Source: Phytohabitans houttuyneae (GTDB lineage: Bacteria; Actinomycetota; Actinomycetes; Mycobacteriales; Micromonosporaceae). Taken from it: DNA of 64,000 nucleotides. The translations under genes were made by a program, and so were the position numbers. The notes under the pieces were generated by a model that was not told the DNA's origin, did not search any database, and worked only from the letters and a program-made list of their open reading frames with translations. Positions within the stretch are counted from its first letter, which is position 1; every line of letters starts with the position of its first letter. Positions 2,988 through 64,000 of the stretch are shown in pieces. The stretch lies in the NCBI RefSeq assembly GCF_011764425.1, contig NZ_BLPF01000001.1, forward strand, positions 797,001 to 861,000. The letters are read 5' to 3'.

Positions 2988-3104
2988 GGGCGTCCCTCTC
3001 CAATGCCGGCCGGGGTGCGCGGGCAGGGAGATGGGGTGGCGTTGGGGCGGCAGATTCCGGTGGCGTCGGCGAACCGACCCCATCCAGGGGTGCCTCCGTC
3101 CCGC

Positions 3105-3248
3105 GCGCTAACTCCCATCCGGACTTTGACCGTCGGCCCTGGACTTACACCAGGTCCACCGGCCGTTGGCTACGACCGGGTCGCGGGCTCTCCGGGCATT
3201 GCGCCCCGATTACCGCCGGTTCGGAATTTCACCGAGCCCCGCCAGCGC
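3105..3248 (-). promoter_or_regulatory. FMN riboswitch (RFN element) upstream of ribD
   Basis: Read on the minus strand this leader has the conserved RFN blocks in order: GGGGCTCGGTGAAATTCC, ACCGGCGGTAAT, GCCCGCGA, a TGGACCTGG-TGTAAGTCCAGG hairpin arm pair, GCCGACGGTCAAAGTCC and GGATGGGAG. The closing P1 helix can form between GCGCT (3244-3248) and AGCGC (3105-3109). It lies about 120 nt before the ribD start and after the stop of the GGDEF gene. Known members bind FMN and switch off transcription or translation of riboflavin genes. No U-rich terminator was seen between it and ribD, so translational or Rho-type control is more likely (inference). Confidence 0.95.
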
Positions 3249-3313
3249 GTGGTGGGTTACCCATCGAGTCTTACACGCATGTGAGGGCGGCGCACCATGG
3301 GACGCGGTCAACA

Positions 3314-56307: not shown

Positions 56308-56610
56308 TTGTTCCTGACCCGGCACGAGCAGGACCGGCTGCTGATCCACGTCGCGGCCGACGTGGCGTGGCGGCGGCGCGAGCGCGGCCTGCGGCTCAAC
56401 CACCCCGAGGCGACCGCGGTGATCACCGCGTTCCTGCTGGAGGCGGCGCGGGACGGGCGCACGGTCGGCGAGCTCATGGAGGCCGGGCGGCAGGTGCTCA
56501 CCCGCGAGGACGTGCTCGACGGCGTGCCGGAGATGCTGGCGGAGGTGCAGGTGGAGGCGACGTTTCCGGACGGCACCAAGCTGGTCACCGTCCACGAGCC
56601 GATCCCATGA
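56308..56610 (+). CDS. ureA: Urease subunit gamma
   Basis: The 100-residue protein is a full-length gamma subunit: [41 protein letters not shown] and [19 protein letters not shown]. The TTG at 56308-56310 is chosen because GGAGG lies 8 nt upstream; the GTG three codons earlier is too close to that site. ureB begins inside the ureA stop (ATGA). First gene of ureABCFGD. Confidence 0.96.
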
Positions 56611-56921
56611 CCGGCATCGTCCCGGGCGAGGTCATTCCGGGCGACGGTGATGTGGAGATCAACGTCGGGCGGCCGGTGCTGACCCTCGCCGTGACCAACA
56701 CCGGCGACCGCCCGGTCCAGGTCGGCTCGCACTACCACTTCGCCGAGGCCAACCCGGCACTCGACTTCGACCGCGCGGCCGCGCGCGGGCACCGGCTCGC
56801 GGTACCGGCCGGGACCAGCGTGCGCTTCGAGCCGGGCATCCCGCGCGACGTCGACCTGGTGCCACTGGGCGGCAACCGGATCGTGCCCGGCCTCCGCGGC
56901 GAGGTCGGAGGACCCCTTTGA
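56607..56921 (+). CDS. ureB: Urease subunit beta
   Basis: The 104-residue protein has [18 protein letters not shown], the conserved [18 protein letters not shown] segment and VRFEPG near the end. It packs with UreA and UreC in the urease trimer of trimers. It is coupled by overlap at both ends, with ureA (ATGA) and ureC (TTGA). Confidence 0.96.
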
Positions 56922-58618
56922 ACAGGCAGCGGTACATCTCCCTCTACGGGCCGACGGCCGGGGACCGCATCCGGCTCGCGGACACCAACCTGCTCATCGA
57001 GGTCGAGGAGGACCGCTGCGCGGGCGGCGACGAGGCGGTCTTCGGCGGCGGCAAGGTGATCCGCGAGTCGATGGGCCAGTCGCGGGCGACCCGCGCGGAG
57101 GGCACCCCGGACACCGTGATCACCGGCGCGGTGGTGCTCGACCACTGGGGCGTGGTGAAGGCGGACGTCGGCATCCGCGACGGGCGGATCGTCGCGCTGG
57201 GCAAGGCGGGCAACCCGGACACGATGGACGGCGTACACCCCGACCTGGTCATCGGGCCGGGCACCGAGGTGATCGCCGGCAACGGCAAGATCCTCACGGC
57301 CGGCGCGATCGACTCGCACGTCCACTTCATCTGCCCGCAGATCCTCGAAGAGGCGCTGGCCAGCGGCATCACCACGGTGATCGGCGGCGGCACCGGCCCG
57401 GCCGAGGGCACCAAGGCCACCACCGTCACGCCGAACGCGTGGCACCTGGCCCGCATGTTCGAGGCGATCGACCCGTGGCCGGTCAACGTGATGCTGCTCG
57501 GCAAGGGCAACACGGTCAGCGCCGAGTCGATGTGGGAGCAGCTGCGGGCCGGCGCGGGCGGCTTCAAGCTGCATGAGGACTGGGGCACCACGCCGGCCGC
57601 GATCGACGCCTGCCTCACCGTCGCCGACGCCGCCGGCGTGCAGGTCAACATCCACACCGACACGCTGAACGAGGCCGGCTTCGTCGAGGACACCCTCCTC
57701 GCGATCGGCGGGCGGTCGATCCACGCGTACCACACCGAGGGTGCGGGCGGCGGCCACGCGCCGGACATCATCACCGTCGCCTCCCACCCGAACGTGCTGC
57801 CGTCCTCGACCAACCCCACCCGGCCGTACACGCGCAACACGCTCGACGAGCACCTCGACATGCTGATGGTCTGCCACCACCTGAACCCGTCGGTGCCGGA
57901 AGACCTCGCGTTCGCGGAGAGCCGCATCCGGCCGAGCACGATGGCGGCCGAGGACGTTCTGCACGACCTCGGTGCGATCTCCATGATCGGCTCGGACTCG
58001 CAGGCGATGGGGCGGGTCGGCGAGGTGGTGCTCCGCACGTGGCAGACCGCGCACGTGATGAAGGACCGTCGCGGCGCGCTGCCCGGCGACGGCGCGGCCG
58101 ACAACCAGCGGGCCCGCCGCTACGTGGCCAAGTACACGATCTGCCCCGCCGTCGCGCACGGCATCGAGGGCGACGTGGGCTCGGTCGAGGCGGGCAAGCT
58201 GGCCGACCTGGTGCTGTGGGACCCGGCGTTCTTCGGCGTGCGGCCGCACCTGGTGATCAAGGGCGGCATGATCGCGTGGGCGCAGATGGGCGACGCGAAC
58301 GCCTCGATCCCCACACCCCAGCCGGTCCTGCCCCGCCCGATGTTCGGCGCGTACGGCGCGGTGCCCGCCGCCACGAGCCTCGCGTTCGTGGCGCCGGCCG
58401 CGATCGAGGACGGGCTGGCCGAGCGGCTCGCGGTGGCGCGGCGGCTGGCGCCGGTCGCCGGGGTACGCGCCCGCGGCAAGGCCGACCTCCCGCTCAACGA
58501 CGCCACCCCGCGCATCGAGGTGGAGCCGGACACGTTCACGGTGCGGATCGACGGCGAGGTGGTCGAGCCGCGGCCGGTGACCGAGCTGCCGATGGCCCAG
58601 CGCTACTTCCTCTTCTGA
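56918..58618 (+). CDS. ureC: Urease subunit alpha (catalytic)
   Basis: The 566-residue protein hydrolyses urea to ammonia and carbamate. All dinickel-site residues are visible and fall at standard urease numbering: His134 and His136 (DSHVHF), carbamylated Lys217 ([10 protein letters not shown]), His246 (VNIHTDT), the [12 protein letters not shown] histidine and the SDSQAMGR Asp. The mobile flap Cys-His is in [16 protein letters not shown]. The start is a TTG overlapping the ureB stop. There is no sign of inactivation. Confidence 0.97.
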
Positions 58619-58626
58619 CGGCGACG

Positions 58627-59250
58627 ATGTCCACCACTCTGCTCCTGCTCGCCGACGGCCGGTTTCCGGCCGGCGGCCACGCGCACTCCGGCGGCCTGGA
58701 GGCGGCGGTCACCGCCGGCCGGGTACGCGACCTCGACGACCTCGACGCCTTCCTGCGCGGCCGGCTGGCGACGGCCGGCGTGGTGGCCGCGGCGTTCGCG
58801 GCGGCCGCGTGCGGGGGCGGCGACGTGCACACGCTCGAAGGCGAGCTCGACGCGCGCACCCCCTCCCCCGCGCTGCGCAGAGCGTCGCGGGCGCAGGGGC
58901 GGGCGCTGCTGCGCGCCGGCCGTACACTGTGGACTCTCTCCACAGTGGAGCGCGAGCTGCACCACCCGGTCGCGCTCGGCGTGGTGGCCGCCGCCGCGGG
59001 GCTGACGCCGCGCGAGGCCGCGCTCACCGCGGCGTACGGCACGGTGACCGGCCCGGCCAGCGCGGCCGTGCGGCTGCTGGGGCTGGACCCGTACGCGACG
59101 CACGCGCTCGTCGCCCGCCTCGCCGCTGACTGCGACGCCGTCGCCGCGCGAGCGGCCACAGTGGACGACCTGCCCGCCTGTTCCGCGCCGTTGCTGGACG
59201 TCATGGCCGAAGCACACGCCACCTGGGAGGTGCGTCTCTTTGCCAGCTGA
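58627..59250 (+). CDS. ureF: Urease accessory protein UreF
   Basis: The 207-residue helical protein has [21 protein letters not shown] at the N-terminus, the UreF signature, and [18 protein letters not shown] later. It forms the UreG-UreF-UreD activation complex that delivers nickel and acts as a GTPase regulator. It starts 8 nt after ureC and overlaps ureG by 11 nt. Confidence 0.93.
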
Positions 59251-59908
59251 GACCGAACACACGCATCCGCACCCGCACGGGGACCCGCACGCGCCGCGAG
59301 CGGCAGGCGGGCGGGCGCTGCGGATCGGCATCGGCGGCCCGGTCGGCTCCGGCAAGACCGCCCTCGTCGCCGCGCTGTGCCGCACGCTCGCCGCCGACGT
59401 GCGGCTCGCGGTGGTGACAAACGACATCTACACGACCGAGGACGCCGACTTCCTGCTCCGCAACGGGGTGCTGCCGGCCGACCGGATCCGCGCGGTGGAG
59501 ACCGGCTGCTGCCCGCACACCGCGATCCGCGACGACATCTCCGCCAACCTCGACGCCTGCGAGGACCTGGAGGCCGACCTCGGCCCGCTCGACCTCGTGC
59601 TCGTGGAGAGCGGCGGCGACAACCTGACCGCCACGTTCAGCAAGGGCCTCGTCGACCGGCAGATCTTCGTGGTCGACGTGGCCGGCGGCGACAAGGTGCC
59701 GCGCAAGGGCGGGCCCGGCGTCACCACCGCCGACCTGCTGGTCGTCAACAAGACCGACCTCGCCCCGCTGGTCGGCGCCGACCTGTCCGTCATGGCCCGG
59801 GACGCCGGCGCCCGCCGCGGCGCCCTGCCGACCGTGTTCCTCTCCCTTGTGGAGGATCCGGCCGCCACACCGGTCGCCGACTGGGTGCGCGGCCTCCTCA
59901 AGGGATGA
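59240..59908 (+). CDS. ureG: Urease accessory GTPase UreG with His-rich N-terminus
   Basis: The 222-residue SIMIBI GTPase has the P-loop GPVGSGKT at 33-40, the Ni-binding CPH motif in [13 protein letters not shown], the VESGGDNL segment and the NKTD guanine motif. Residues 7-17 contain five histidines, a likely nickel store. No ureE gene is present, and the His-rich end may compensate. The start is a TTG inside the end of ureF; a GTG or ATG with a better site was not found. Confidence 0.95.
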
Positions 59909-60669
59909 AAGCCACCGCCCGGATCACCGCGGTCGCGGAGGCCGGGCGCACGCGGCTGGTCACCCTCAGGTCGCAAACCCCGCTTCTGGTACGCAGGACG
60001 GGGTACCGCCTCGCGGACGGTGAAGCCGAGGTGCACCTTGTCGGCGGGGCGGCCGGCCCGCTGGGCGGTGACCGGCTGCGCATCGAGGTGACCGTCGAGC
60101 GCGGCGCGCGGCTGTGCGTGCGCAGCGTCGCGGCCTCGCTCGCCCTCCCCGGCCCGCCCGGCGCACAGTCCATCCTGGACATCCACGCGCGGGTGGCCGC
60201 CGGCGGCGCGCTGCGCTGGCTGCCCGAGCCGCTCATCGCGGCAAAGGGCTGCGACCACGTGTCCAGGTCCCTTGTGGAGCTGGACGGCGACGCCCGCCTC
60301 ACCTGGCGGGAGGAGGTCGTGTGCGGTCGCCACGGCGAGGAGCCCGGCGACGCGCGGCTGGAGAGCGCGGTGCGCCGCGACGGCCGTACCCTCATGCGCC
60401 AGGAACTCGCAGTCGGACCGCGCGCCCCCGGCTGGGCCGGCCCTTCGGTGCTGGGCGGCGGCCGCGCCACCGGCACCCTGCTGATAGTGGATCCTCTGTG
60501 GACGGACAAGCCGCCGGAAGCGGCGGTCCTCGGGCCCGGCGCGGCGCTGATGCCGCTCGCCGGCGGTCCCGCCGCGCTCGCCACCGCGGTCGGTGGTGAC
60601 CTGCGCGAGGTGCGCGCGGCGCTCGACAAGGCGTTCCCGCAAGCCGCCACAGACATAGACAAGTATTGA
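59905..60669 (+). CDS. ureD: Urease accessory protein UreD/UreH
   Basis: The 254-residue beta-rich protein has the features of Ure[33 protein letters not shown], a [17 protein letters not shown] segment and [14 protein letters not shown]. It bridges apo-urease with UreF and UreG. The ATG overlaps the ureG stop (ATGA). It completes the set ureABC-FGD. Confidence 0.92.
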
Positions 60670-60685
60670 TTGAACGCGCTACGAT
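60656..60685 (+). promoter_or_regulatory. Possible promoter for the DoxX gene
   Basis: TAGACA (60656-60661) and TACGAT (60680-60685) are 18 nt apart, at the 3' end of ureD and 40 nt before the DoxX ATG. It is the most AT-rich spot in the area. Low-confidence call by eye. Confidence 0.35.
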
Positions 60686-60725
60686 CTCCTGGCCGTGGGG
60701 ACCAGCCTCTACAGGAGCTCTTCGT

Positions 60726-61157
60726 ATGAACCCTGCACGCATCCCAGACCTCGTCACCTCGCTGTTCCGCATCGTGCTCGGGCTGCTGTTCGCCCTGCAC
60801 GGCGCCTCGTCGCTGTTCGGCGTCTTCGGCGGCAACCGCGGCTCGGGCGAGGCGATCGCCGTCGGCACCTGGCCCGGGTGGTACGCGGCGGTGATCCAGC
60901 TCGCCGGCGGCCTGCTGGTGCTGTCCGGCCTCGCCACCCGCGTCTCCGCCCTCGTCTGCTCCGGCTCGATGGCGTACGCGTACTTCACGGTCCACCAGCC
61001 CGACGGCCTCCTGCCGATGAACAACGGCGGCGAGCGCGCCGCCCTGTTCTGCTGGTGCTTCCTGCTGATCGCGGCGCTCGGCCCGGGCCGGTGGTCGGTC
61101 GACCACATGCTGACCCGGCGGCGCGCGTCCGTGCCCGAGCCGGCGGTCGCCTCGTGA
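60726..61157 (+). CDS. DoxX family membrane protein
   Basis: The 143-residue protein has four membrane helices with the DoxX pattern: LFRIVLGLLFALHGASSLFG, QLAGGLLVLSGLATRVSAL, AYFTVHQPDGLLPMNNGGERAALFC and LIAALGPGRWSVDHML. AGGAG lies 8 nt before the ATG. Some members take part in redox or thiol metabolism; the role here is unknown. It overlaps the SSI-like gene by 4 nt (GTGA). Confidence 0.88.
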   Translation: MNPARIPDLVTSLFRIVLGLLFALHGASSLFGVFGGNRGSGEAIAVGTWPGWYAAVIQLAGGLLVLSGLATRVSALVCSGSMAYAYFTVHQPDGLLPMNNGGERAALFCWCFLLIAALGPGRWSVDHMLTRRRASVPEPAVAS

Positions 61158-61528
61158 GGGCCCGGCGCGTCCTCGGCGCGCTCGCGCTGGCCGGCGCGCT
61201 GAGCCTGGCCGGCGCGCAGGGCGCGGCGGCGGGCGCGGACGGCGTGACCGAGTTCGAGATCTACACGGTCAACGGCGTCAAGACGCTCACCTGCGCCCCC
61301 GACGGCGGCACCCACCCCCACGCCAAGGCAGCCTGCGCCGAGATCGACGCGGCACGCGGCAACATCGCCGCCGTGCCCCGCCTGCCCGGCTACGGCTGCC
61401 TGGACGAGTGGGACCCCGTGCTGATCGGCGTGACCGGCACGTGGCGCGGCCAGGAGGTGCTGTTCAGCTCGTTCGAGTCGAACAAGGGCTGCGCGGCCAT
61501 CCGCCACGGCCACATCTTCTGGTACTGA
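61154..61528 (+). CDS. Subtilisin inhibitor (SSI)-like secreted protein with an acidic reactive site
   Basis: The 124-residue protein has a signal peptide (about 1-27) and the SSI pattern with four cysteines: TCAPDGGTHPHAKAACAEI, YGCLDEWDPVLIGVTGTWRG and NKGCAAI. In Streptomyces subtilisin inhibitor the reactive bond lies in Cys-Pro-Met-Val-Tyr-Asp-Pro-Val. Here the equivalent is Cys-Leu-Asp-Glu-Trp-Asp-Pro-Val, so P1-P1' would be Asp-Glu. That would not suit subtilisin or trypsin. The GTG start overlaps the DoxX stop. Confidence 0.85.
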   Translation: MRARRVLGALALAGALSLAGAQGAAAGADGVTEFEIYTVNGVKTLTCAPDGGTHPHAKAACAEIDAARGNIAAVPRLPGYGCLDEWDPVLIGVTGTWRGQEVLFSSFESNKGCAAIRHGHIFWY

Positions 61529-61619
61529 CGATCTTTAAAGACACACAGTCGCAACAAACGGGCAAAGCACGGGCAACGGGCGGCGGTTCTACTGCGTCTG
61601 ACTCACCACCGGTGAGGCG

Positions 61620-61734
61620 CGCCTAGGGTTCCGCCGCTCGTTCGCGCGGGCGGGGCTGGACCGAGAGACGCAGGCGCGCGTGTCGCGACGTCGCGGTGCG
61701 CGCGTTCCACGGCGGGACAAAAGCCCGGGAGACA
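61620..61734 (+). promoter_or_regulatory. Guanidine-I riboswitch (ykkC class)
   Basis: The leader contains the conserved ykkC blocks in order: CTAGGGTTCCG (61623-61633), GCTGGACCGAGAGAC (near 61655-61669), and ACGGCGGGACAAAAGCCCGGGAGA (61709-61732), with GC-rich variable hairpins between them. The match to these nearly invariant sequences is very good. Known members bind guanidinium and switch on genes for guanidine export or breakdown. Here it precedes a ureohydrolase and an uptake system. Confidence 0.92.
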
Positions 61735-61785
61735 GCCAAGTCCTGGCTGTGCCGTCCCAGCCAGGCCCCTCTCCCGGAGGTGCCC
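61733..61785 (+). promoter_or_regulatory. Expression platform: mutually exclusive hairpins and masked ribosome binding site
   Basis: CAGCCA (61733-61738) can pair with TGGCTG (61744-61749), or CCTGGCTG (61742-61749) can pair with CAGCCAGG (61758-61765); the two exclude each other. CCTC (61768-61771) can pair with GAGG of the GGAGG ribosome binding site (61776-61780). There is no U tract, so translational control of the GTG at 61786 is the best reading (inference). Confidence 0.6.
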
Positions 61786-62897
61786 GTGGCCCACATCCAC
61801 GACAACTACGGTCCCGAAGCGCGCTACGCCGTGGAGCGCGAGGCCGAACTGCCCACCACCAAGTGGGACGAGGAGGTCGCCCGCGGCCTCGAGCTCGGCC
61901 TCCCCGGCGCGGACTCCATCGTGGACCGCCGCATCCCCACGTTCAGCCGCGGCGAGCTGCCCCACTTCGCCGGCATCAACACGTTCCTCAAGGCGCCGTA
62001 CCTGGAGGACGTGCGCCGCTGCGGCGAGTACGACGTGGCGGTGCTCGGCGCGCCCTTCGACGGCGGCACCACCTACCGGTCCGGCACCCGCTTCGGCCCG
62101 CAGGGCATCCGCAAGATCTCCGCACTCTACGGCCCGTACTCGTTCGAGCTCGGCGTCGACCTCCGCGAGTCGATCACGATCGCCGACCTGGGCGACGTCT
62201 TCACGATCCCGGCGAACATCGAGAAGACGTTCGACCAGATCTCCAAGGCGGTCGGCCACGTGTACGCCTCGGGCGCCTTCCCGGTCGTGCTGGGCGGCGA
62301 CCACTCGATCGGCTACCCCACCGTGCGCGGCGTGGCCGAGCACCTCGACGGCAACCTCGGGATCATCCACTTCGACCGCCACGTCGACACCCAGGAAACC
62401 GACCTCGACGAGCGGATGCACACCACACCGTGGTTCCACGCCACCGACATCCCGAACGTGCCGCCGAAAAACCTCGTGCAGATCGGCATCGGCGGGTGGC
62501 AGGCGCCCCGCCCGGGGTCAAGGTCGGGCGCGAGCGCGGCACGACGATCATGACCGTCACCGACTGCGTCGAGATGGGCATCGAGGCGGCCGCCGCCAGG
62601 GCCCTGGAGGTGGCCTGGGACGGCGCCGACGCGGTGTGGCTCTCGTTCGACGTCGACTGCCTCGACGCCGCGTTCGTACCCGGAACCGGATGGCCCGAGC
62701 CCGGCGGCTTCCTCCCCCGCGAGGTGCTCAAGTTCATCCAGCTCATCGCCGAGCGGCCGCTCGCCGGCATCGAGGTCGTGGAGTGCTCGCCGCCCTACGA
62801 CAACGCCGAGATCACCTCGCTCATCGCCACCCGGGTCATCTGCGACACGCTCGGCTGCCTCGTGCGCGCCGGTCACCTTCCCTTGAGAAGCGCGTAA
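61786..62897 (+). CDS. gdmH: Guanidine hydrolase (guanidinase)-type ureohydrolase, frame broken by one missing base
   Basis: The repaired product is 370 residues, starting at GTG 61786 with GGAGG 5 nt upstream. It has a long N-terminal region (about 1-80) before the arginase fold: APFDGGTTYRSGTRFGPQGIR, GGDHS at 170-174, and the metal segment DRHVD at 197-201, where agmatinases usually have DAHxD. After GGWQAPRPG the frame breaks at the GGGG run 62514-62517; one extra G restores VKVGRERGTTIM and SFDVDCLDAAFVPGTGWPEPGG. The DRHVDTQE and ERMHTTPWFHATD segments and the guanidine riboswitch point to guanidine to urea plus ammonia rather than agmatinase. Confidence 0.8.
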
Positions 62898-62914
62898 CTC
62901 GTTAGGAGCATGCA

Positions 62915-63910
62915 ATGAGAAGAGTTCTCGCCGCCGCCGCGGCGTTCGTGTTGCTGTCCGCCGCCGCCTGCTCCGAGGGCGGCGACGACGCCGAGGCGGG
63001 CGCGCCCACCACCGTCCGGCTCGGGTTCAGCGCGTGGCCCGGCTGGTTTCCCTGGCAGGTCGCGCAGGAGCAGGGCCTGTTCGCCAAGAACGGCGTGACC
63101 GTCGACCTGAAGTACTTCGACAGCTACACCGACAGCCTCACCGCCCTGTCCACCGGAAACCTGGACGCCAACAGCCAGACGCTGAACGACACGCTCTCCT
63201 CCGTGAGCGGCGGAGCCAAGCAGACGATCGTGCTGGTCAACGACAACTCGACCGGCAACGACCAGATCATCGCCCGCGCCGGCATCGACACCGTGGCCGA
63301 CCTCAAGGGCCGTACGGTGGCGGTCGAGCAGGGCACGGTCGACCACTATCTGCTGCTGCTCGCCCTGCGCAAGGCCGGACTGTCCGAAGGGGACATCACG
63401 GTGAAGGCGCTGCTGACCGACGCGGCCGCGGCGGCGTTCGTGGCCGGGCAGGTCGACGCGGTGGGCGCGTTCGCCCCGTTCACCACCACGGCGCTCGGGC
63501 TCGCCGGCAGCAAGGCGATCGCCACCTCCGCCGACTTCCCCGGCGCGATCCCGGACCACCTCGTCTTCGACGCCGACTTCGTCAAGGACCACCCGAAGGA
63601 GGTGCAGGCCATGGTGGACACCTGGTTCGACACGATCGCCTGGATCGCGGCCAACAAGGACGCGGCCATCGCCATCATGGCCAAGAAGGGCGGCGTCAGC
63701 GACGCCGACTACAAGACCTACGACGCCGGTACCACGATCTTCACGCACGAGCAGAACCTCGCCGCGTTCACGCCCGGCCAGAGCGCCGCCAACCTCGACT
63801 TCCAGGCCCGGTCCATCGCCACGTTCCTGGTCGACGCCAAGCTCGTGGACGAGGAGCCGCCGCTCGACGGTCTCTTCGACCCGACGTTCGTCAAAGCGGC
63901 GACGCCATGA
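62915..63910 (+). CDS. ABC transporter substrate-binding lipoprotein, nitrate/sulfonate/taurine type
   Basis: The 331-residue protein has a signal peptide with a lipobox ending in Cys19 and an SsuA/TauA/THI5-like periplasmic binding fold: VRLGFSAWPGWFPWQVAQEQGLF, DSLTALSTGNLDANSQTL, IDTVADLKGRTVAVEQGTVDHYLL and AFVAGQVDAVGAF. AGGAG precedes the ATG. It follows the ureohydrolase by 17 nt under the guanidine riboswitch, so guanidine or a related cation is the likely ligand (inference); homologues of this type are a known riboswitch-associated group. Confidence 0.85.
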   Translation: MRRVLAAAAAFVLLSAAACSEGGDDAEAGAPTTVRLGFSAWPGWFPWQVAQEQGLFAKNGVTVDLKYFDSYTDSLTALSTGNLDANSQTLNDTLSSVSGGAKQTIVLVNDNSTGNDQIIARAGIDTVADLKGRTVAVEQGTVDHYLLLLALRKAGLSEGDITVKALLTDAAAAAFVAGQVDAVGAFAPFTTTALGLAGSKAIATSADFPGAIPDHLVFDADFVKDHPKEVQAMVDTWFDTIAWIAANKDAAIAIMAKKGGVSDADYKTYDAGTTIFTHEQNLAAFTPGQSAANLDFQARSIATFLVDAKLVDEEPPLDGLFDPTFVKAATP

Positions 63911-64000
63911 GCGAGCGGGCCGGCACGGCGGCCTCCCTCGCGGCGGAGCCCTCGGCCGTGCCCGAACCCGCGCCGCCGCGCTCCCTCCCGCGCCGCCGCC
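63907..64000 (+). CDS. ABC transporter permease, N-terminal fragment
   Basis: An ATG overlapping the substrate-binding protein stop (ATGA) opens a frame that starts MSERAGTAASLAAEPS and runs off the window with a Pro/Arg-rich cytoplasmic leader. No membrane segment is reached. Permease is inferred only from position in the transporter operon. Confidence 0.5.
   Translation, partial: MSERAGTAASLAAEPSAVPEPAPPRSLPRRR

Follow-up and report, generated by a model that had tools for sequence, protein, structure and literature searches.

Whether the genes needed to take up guanidine, hydrolyse it to urea and split that urea in turn stand together in an actinobacterium is the question raised by one end of a 64,000-nucleotide stretch of the Phytohabitans houttuyneae genome, the whole of which is referred to here as the window. 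A preliminary description of the window had proposed a set made up of a guanidine-I riboswitch, a guanidine hydrolase gene (gdmH), an ATP-binding cassette (ABC) importer and a urease, and all of these are found between positions 56308 and 64000 and just beyond. The urease operon ureABCFGD (56308-60669, plus strand) is complete, with the structural genes ureABC and the accessory genes ureF, ureG and ureD, and ends 943 bases before the riboswitch aptamer, in agreement with the distance of about 1 kb given earlier; the substrate-binding lipoprotein of the importer is likewise present. We consider the locus to be very probably a guanidine-assimilation cluster of Phytohabitans (Micromonosporaceae), working as follows. 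Guanidine bound to the guanidine-I aptamer would turn on expression of gdmH and of the ABC importer; guanidinium would enter the cell through the latter; GdmH, presumably a Ni-dependent ureohydrolase, would convert guanidinium to urea and ammonium; and the urease encoded 0.9 kb upstream would split the urea, while UrtABCDE, encoded nearby, would recover external urea. The neighbourhood would thereby cover presumed guanidine uptake, hydrolysis to urea, urea hydrolysis and urea uptake. A guanidine-to-urea route has previously been described for Synechocystis and Nitrospira inopinata (PMC8390497, PMC11410670, PMC12186494).

The gdmH frame is divided into two pieces in the assembly, which were searched and scored separately. 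Among solved structures in the PDB the first piece scores 498 bits against 9FEK, the guanidinase of N. inopinata (PMC11410670), and 396 bits against 7ESR/7OI1, the GdmH of Synechocystis, with any other ureohydrolase at 107 bits or less (metformin-hydrolase chains, 70-76 bits); the second piece scores 223 and 157 bits respectively, with all others at 71 or less. The corresponding identities are 86% over 241 residues to 9FEK and 71% over 234 to 7ESR for the first piece, and 82% over 124 and 62% over 123 for the second; with a solved structure 82-86% identical, structure prediction was needless. Identity to the first piece is 33-41% for proclavaminate amidinohydrolase, guanidinobutyrase, guanidinopropionase and the agmatinase-like protein encoded in the same genome. 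In a FastTree phylogeny of the N-terminal part of 102 sequences, a few of which duplicate a locus, the window protein and the two characterised guanidinases define a clade of 97 members (local support 0.86) that leaves outside it the three characterised non-guanidinases, the agmatinase-like protein and an unusual homologue, L101, which joins next to the clade with support 0.92. The enzyme thus groups with the characterised guanidinases, apart from the other ureohydrolases compared, in line with the preliminary description.

The residues tied to guanidine specificity, Thr97 and Trp305 in Synechocystis numbering (PMC11410670; PDB chain numbering is 2 higher), are both kept, as Thr96 of the first piece (62071-62073) and Trp59 of the second (62691-62693). 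The DRHVD metal-ligand motif, already noted to replace the DAHxD of agmatinases, is common to 9FEK and 7ESR and was seen in 96 of the 98 matches inspected (some of these again duplicates of one locus). It marks the guanidine hydrolase family, which bears out the argument drawn from it in the preliminary description. The two matches lacking it are L101, which has DRHID and, where the Trp would be, Ser, and L107, which is agmatinase-like and has DAHAD; for L035 the Trp site was not located. Apart from gdmH, the genome holds a gene with DAHAD that we label agmatinase-like. It had been predicted that automated annotation would call the enzyme an agmatinase, and this is plausible given that the PDB entries of its closest relatives are so named and that the NCBI agmatinase models match the separate pieces, if below cut-off (TIGR01230, 88 and 70 bits against a cut-off of 174; the whole enzyme would score higher). 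Closeness to the guanidinases is better evidence than these sub-cut-off scores, and on such comparisons the enzyme is assigned as an orthologue of the characterised guanidine hydrolases.

Homologues that depart from this pattern also occur. L101 (L101:1420-2577) is 64% identical to the window's first piece, carries Ser where the specificity Trp would stand, is followed by a gene that reads as permease-like, and belongs to a genome (G208) with no HypA, HypB or UreG match; it possibly acts on another substrate. Another Micromonosporaceae genome, G354, has two GdmH homologues (C1:7405254 and C1:7103606), 93% and 68% identical to the first piece.

The aptamer upstream of gdmH is real but ordinary. 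The Rfam covariance search returned a clear and significant RF00442 match (Table 1), the sole guanidine-I riboswitch found in the genome, which upholds the presence of the element claimed in the preliminary description. Its characterization as near-perfect does not hold, since RF00442 exceeds the gathering threshold in 10 of 15 related loci scanned (65-89 bits) and nine of these outscore the window. In one, L082, the aptamer lies approximately 6 kb away from gdmH. The remaining five (L068, L043, L015, L079 and L004) gave no score over gathering, core aptamer motifs being visible by pattern in L004. By analogy with known guanidine-I riboswitches the aptamer would regulate by binding guanidine, in the ON sense. 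A search restricted to T-tailed hairpins found no terminator-like site on the plus strand at 60500-62000. A translational switch hiding the ribosome site is no more than a possibility: the predicted fold contains the pairing of 61725-61732 with 61770-61777, but the leader of L087 lacks the 8-base pairing, the fold is not predicted to be more stable than shuffled sequences, 47 of 200 of which do equally well (z -0.62), and the length of the pairing is matched in a fraction of 0.11 of shuffles. Among the other leaders compared the same 8-base pairing occurs only in L004, with a 7-base one at that place in L003. The segment 61725-61777 is therefore possibly an expression platform, and a weak candidate.

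The association of gdmH with urease was surveyed at several scales, in counts uncorrected for relatedness. Among 200 Micromonosporaceae genomes (at most 15 first-look candidates scored per genome) gdmH is present in 36, all of which carry ureG, as against 88 of the 164 without gdmH. The two genes share a contig in 25 of the 36; the distance between them is at most 10 kb in 13, where 0.08 would be expected under random placement, and at most 25 kb in 17, where 0.2 would be expected. A class-wide sample (up to 12 first-look candidates scored in each genome) gave ureG in 13 of 14 gdmH genomes and in 70 of 232 others. The examined flank (up to 10.7 kb) includes a urease gene in 17 of 80 named gdmH loci: nine upstream on the same strand, four downstream on the same strand and four on the opposite strand, L007 of these at 10.7 kb. 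Loci titled Nitrospira are absent from these 17. The linkage recurs across other groups and in other arrangements, one of them an array behind a riboswitch.

Several observations weigh against the assignment of a working guanidine-assimilation cluster: as assembled, gdmH has a frame break near 62,515; neither HypA nor HypB turned up in the genome (95% complete), though Synechocystis GdmH depends on such chaperones; no urease gene is present in the examined flank of 63 of the 80 named loci, many of these flanks ending at contig ends; and the co-occurrence and linkage counts share the lack of correction for ancestry noted above.

The break would be explained if gdmH were a true pseudogene of this strain, the cluster being a relic in which only the urease works. 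The gene of P. suffuscus, which with P. maris is the nearest named match, is also broken, at a different position, and of the six genus genomes searched, five have gdmH and one (G001, 89% complete) gave no match. Set against this, the frame is open in P. maris and in L087, and both pieces are 98% identical to the P. maris protein, with codon changes that are mostly synonymous (37 synonymous and 4 other in 244 codons before the break, 20 and 2 in 126 after it), a pattern that by codon comparison is purifying on either side. Within the same 20 kb, further genes are broken relative to open P. maris frames, urtC once (L002:15699-17719) and a Ser/Thr kinase gene twice (L002:10636-12472), while ureC, ureF, ureG, ureD and the genes for the binding protein, permease and ATPase are unbroken. 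Because the sister copies are intact, the change is purifying and neighbouring genes are broken too, an indel error in the assembly, which comprises five contigs, appears likelier than death of the gene, and a pseudogene is unlikely.

About equally improbable is that the urease came to lie here by chance and has nothing to do functionally with guanidine. It lies upstream of the riboswitch, so that there is no evidence here for riboswitch control of urease, a doxX gene and an inhibitor-like gene intervene, and the 63 flanks without urease point the same way. Chance placement is however hard to reconcile with the 13 of 36 family genomes in which ureG lies within 10 kb, or with recurrence in other groups and arrangements, even if within the family the uncorrected ancestry means that the linkage may go back to a single event, or a small number of them, and have been inherited since. 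That the substrate is another guanidino compound (agmatine, guanidinobutyrate or dimethylguanidine) is the least credible alternative, for although the ureohydrolase superfamily is broad and the PDB entries of the nearest relatives are named agmatinase, the protein is 82-86% identical to a guanidinase reported to have been assayed against alternatives (PMC11410670), retains the specificity Thr and Trp, follows an aptamer of the guanidine-I class and coexists with a separate agmatinase-like gene.

The urease linkage can be compared with arrangements in other genomes. For four model genomes, the legend of Fig. 1 of PMC11410670 places urease at sites outside guanidine riboswitch control. Two actinobacterial metagenome-assembled genomes (MAGs) carry on one strand a riboswitch, gdmH, an APC-type permease gene, ureA, ureB, ureC, ureF, ureG and ureD (L045:9810-18001 and L076:9817-17685), and a third has the same array with ureD divergent (L071:3240-10165). 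Measured by first start codon, gdmH and the permease gene are 1-3 bases apart and the permease gene and ureA 24-72 bases; ureC, ureG and ureD were assigned by similarity search, and ureA, ureB, ureF and the permease by reading of open reading frames (ORFs), unscored. These three arrays suggest, by gene order only, exceptions to the siting of urease outside riboswitch control. A Dehalococcoidia MAG (L068:198-14090) has on one strand urtABCDE, a guanidine-type ABC importer, gdmH and ureABCFGD, with no Rfam guanidine-I aptamer. A literature search returned no title or opening of an abstract describing urease in a guanidine-riboswitch operon, which is not proof of absence.

HypA and HypB are the usual nickel chaperones, and their apparent lack in this genome raises the question of how GdmH would obtain its metal. 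Synechocystis GdmH is reported to use nickel-delivery helpers (PMC12186494), encoded by hypA and hypB (PMC8390497), whereas for the guanidinase of N. inopinata nickel loading is called unclear, HypA and HypB being reported as not found there (PMC11410670). Since they were not found in N. inopinata either, these chaperones are not defining for a guanidine hydrolase. In a whole-genome HypB search the only HypB-like protein of the window genome is UreG of the adjoining urease, which falls below the HypB cut-off. A wider survey took in 66 listings, covering 50 of the 80 named loci and 16 other genomes, which gave 65 distinct gdmH genomes once G289, a duplicate of G203, had been removed; of the 30 named loci outside the set, 24 are titled Nitrospira, Nitrospiraceae, Nitrospirae or, once, Nitrosospira. 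With presence defined as a match that exceeds the curated cut-off, which the weak HypA match of G297 does not reach, HypA occurs in 31 genomes, HypB in 18, neither in 34, the window genome included, and UreG in 63. The two genomes without UreG are a MAG (G287) and G208, the source of the GdmH homologue with Ser for the specificity Trp. The nickel-loading puzzle is thereby widened from comammox bacteria to many actinobacterial genomes, some from cultured strains.

As HypA and HypB are missing in these 34 genomes, the urease accessory proteins UreD, UreF and UreG become natural candidates, and it is conceivable, if rather doubtful, that in the absence of both chaperones UreG with UreD and UreF also loads nickel into GdmH. 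The co-occurrence of UreG with gdmH says nothing on this point because urease is needed in any case to use the urea. Linkage was taken instead as a test, defined in the 65 genomes as a urease gene in the examined flank or at nearby coordinates, which draft contigs can mask. It was no more frequent in the absence of HypA (11 of 34 genomes without HypA linked and 8 of 31 with it; Fisher p 0.60) or of HypB (13 of 47 without and 6 of 18 with; p 0.76), and loading by UreDFG is unsupported by this test. Were it nevertheless to hold, gdmH-urease linkage would place two consecutive nickel enzymes of the pathway under a shared metal-delivery machinery and would answer how a guanidinase acquires nickel without a known chaperone, a gap stated for N. 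inopinata (PMC11410670).

The features of the cluster and its surroundings are collected in Table 1. Beyond those of the preliminary description they include doxX, the subtilisin-inhibitor-like gene, the permease and ATPase genes continuing past the window, and urtABCDE on the other strand. The DoxX-family gene has counterparts at L003, L004 and L087 as well, while the subtilisin-inhibitor-like protein probably bears no relation to guanidine. Within the urea importer, urtC is frame-broken and unscored and was assigned by reading alone.

Table 1. Coordinates of the guanidine and urea gene neighbourhood of the P. houttuyneae window; features beyond its end are given on locus L002.
Feature	Position	Strand	Evidence or remark
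ureA, urease gamma subunit	56308..56610	+	NF009712 162 bits, cut-off 123
ureB, urease beta subunit	56607..56921	+	NF009682 156 bits, cut-off 129
ureC, urease alpha subunit (nickel site)	56918..58618	+	NF009685 1136 bits, cut-off 907
ureF, urease accessory protein	58627..59250	+	PF01730 98 bits, over Pfam gathering; without NCBIfam match
ureG, urease nickel GTPase, His-rich N-terminus	59240..59908	+	TIGR00101 270 bits, cut-off 204
ureD, urease accessory protein	59905..60669	+	PF01774 98 bits, over Pfam gathering; without NCBIfam match
DoxX-family membrane protein, between urease and riboswitch	60726..61157	+	PF07681 50 bits
Subtilisin-inhibitor-like secreted protein	61154..61528	+	PF00720 70 bits
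Guanidine-I riboswitch aptamer	61612..61733	+	RF00442 68.9 bits, gathering 63, E 3.8e-10
Possible expression platform	61725..61777	+	61725-61732 able to pair with 61770-61777, overlapping the ribosome-binding GGAGG
gdmH, first piece	61786..62553	+	Homologous to ~62,515, out of register beyond
DRHVD metal-ligand motif	62374..62388	+	Typical of guanidine hydrolases
gdmH, second piece, other frame	62517..62897	+	Similarity to 9FEK and 7ESR
NitT/TauT-type ABC substrate-binding lipoprotein, presumed guanidine receptor	62915..63910	+	TIGR01728 224 bits, cut-off 163.5
ABC permease, gene start	63907..64000	+	PF00528 98.6 bits; runs past the window, L002:8907-9788
ABC ATPase, beyond the window	L002:9788-10567		ORF and similarity to gdmH-linked ATPases of relatives
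urtABCDE (urea import), beyond the window	~3.7 kb after the ATPase	opposite	NCBIfam UrtA, B, D, E over cut-off

Two further RNA matches were obtained in the window. An FMN (flavin mononucleotide) riboswitch lies at 3103-3250 on the minus strand (103.6 bits, gathering 66.2). A match to the 5' ureB small RNA (RF02514) at 57060-57351, minus strand, was rejected: it falls within ureC in antisense orientation, and other actinobacteria and the Dehalococcoidia MAG show the same match over their ureC, which points to coding similarity and not to an RNA.

The chemistry, the riboswitch and the importer are already known from Synechocystis and comammox bacteria, and the linkage to urease is less known; the cluster is a new case of a known kind, and the placing of urease beside or within the unit seems to be an under-reported arrangement in the literature searched. 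The guanidinase route would extend to a clade of soil actinobacteria, where it is probably hidden under agmatinase labels, and the genes for splitting urea are in physical linkage with it, in some cases apparently downstream of the guanidine riboswitch. One of the closest known parallels is the guanidine operon of Synechocystis PCC 6803, in which a guanidine-I riboswitch, GdmH (Sll1077) and an SsuA-type ABC importer (sll1080-1082; PMC8390497) deliver urea to urease, and the importer of the window, with binding protein, permease and ATPase all present, is of the SsuA type too. The Synechocystis operon differs in including HypA/HypB-like nickel chaperones (PMC12186494), which were not found in the window genome, and in having its urease elsewhere (PMC11410670, Fig. 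1 legend), whereas here urease adjoins the unit and a urea importer lies nearby. The units of N. inopinata and other comammox bacteria resemble the window in their guanidine-I riboswitch, in their guanidinase (86% and 82% identity to the pieces) and in that no HypA or HypB was found, while import is predicted to occur there through an APC permease in place of an ABC importer, and the N. inopinata urease is again described as lying elsewhere (PMC11410670). The metformin and dimethylguanidine hydrolases MefH and DmgH are likewise Ni-dependent ureohydrolases; they are, however, heteromeric, are reported with HypA/HypB genes alongside (PMC11399263) and match the window's first piece far more weakly. 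The guanidine carboxylase pathway of Pseudomonas syringae, Klebsiella and Raoultella is also controlled by a guanidine riboswitch and served by an ABC importer (PMC12186494) and proceeds through an ATP-dependent carboxylase, a deiminase and allophanate hydrolase; none of its genes was seen in the part of the genome read for them, 56308-64000 and L002.

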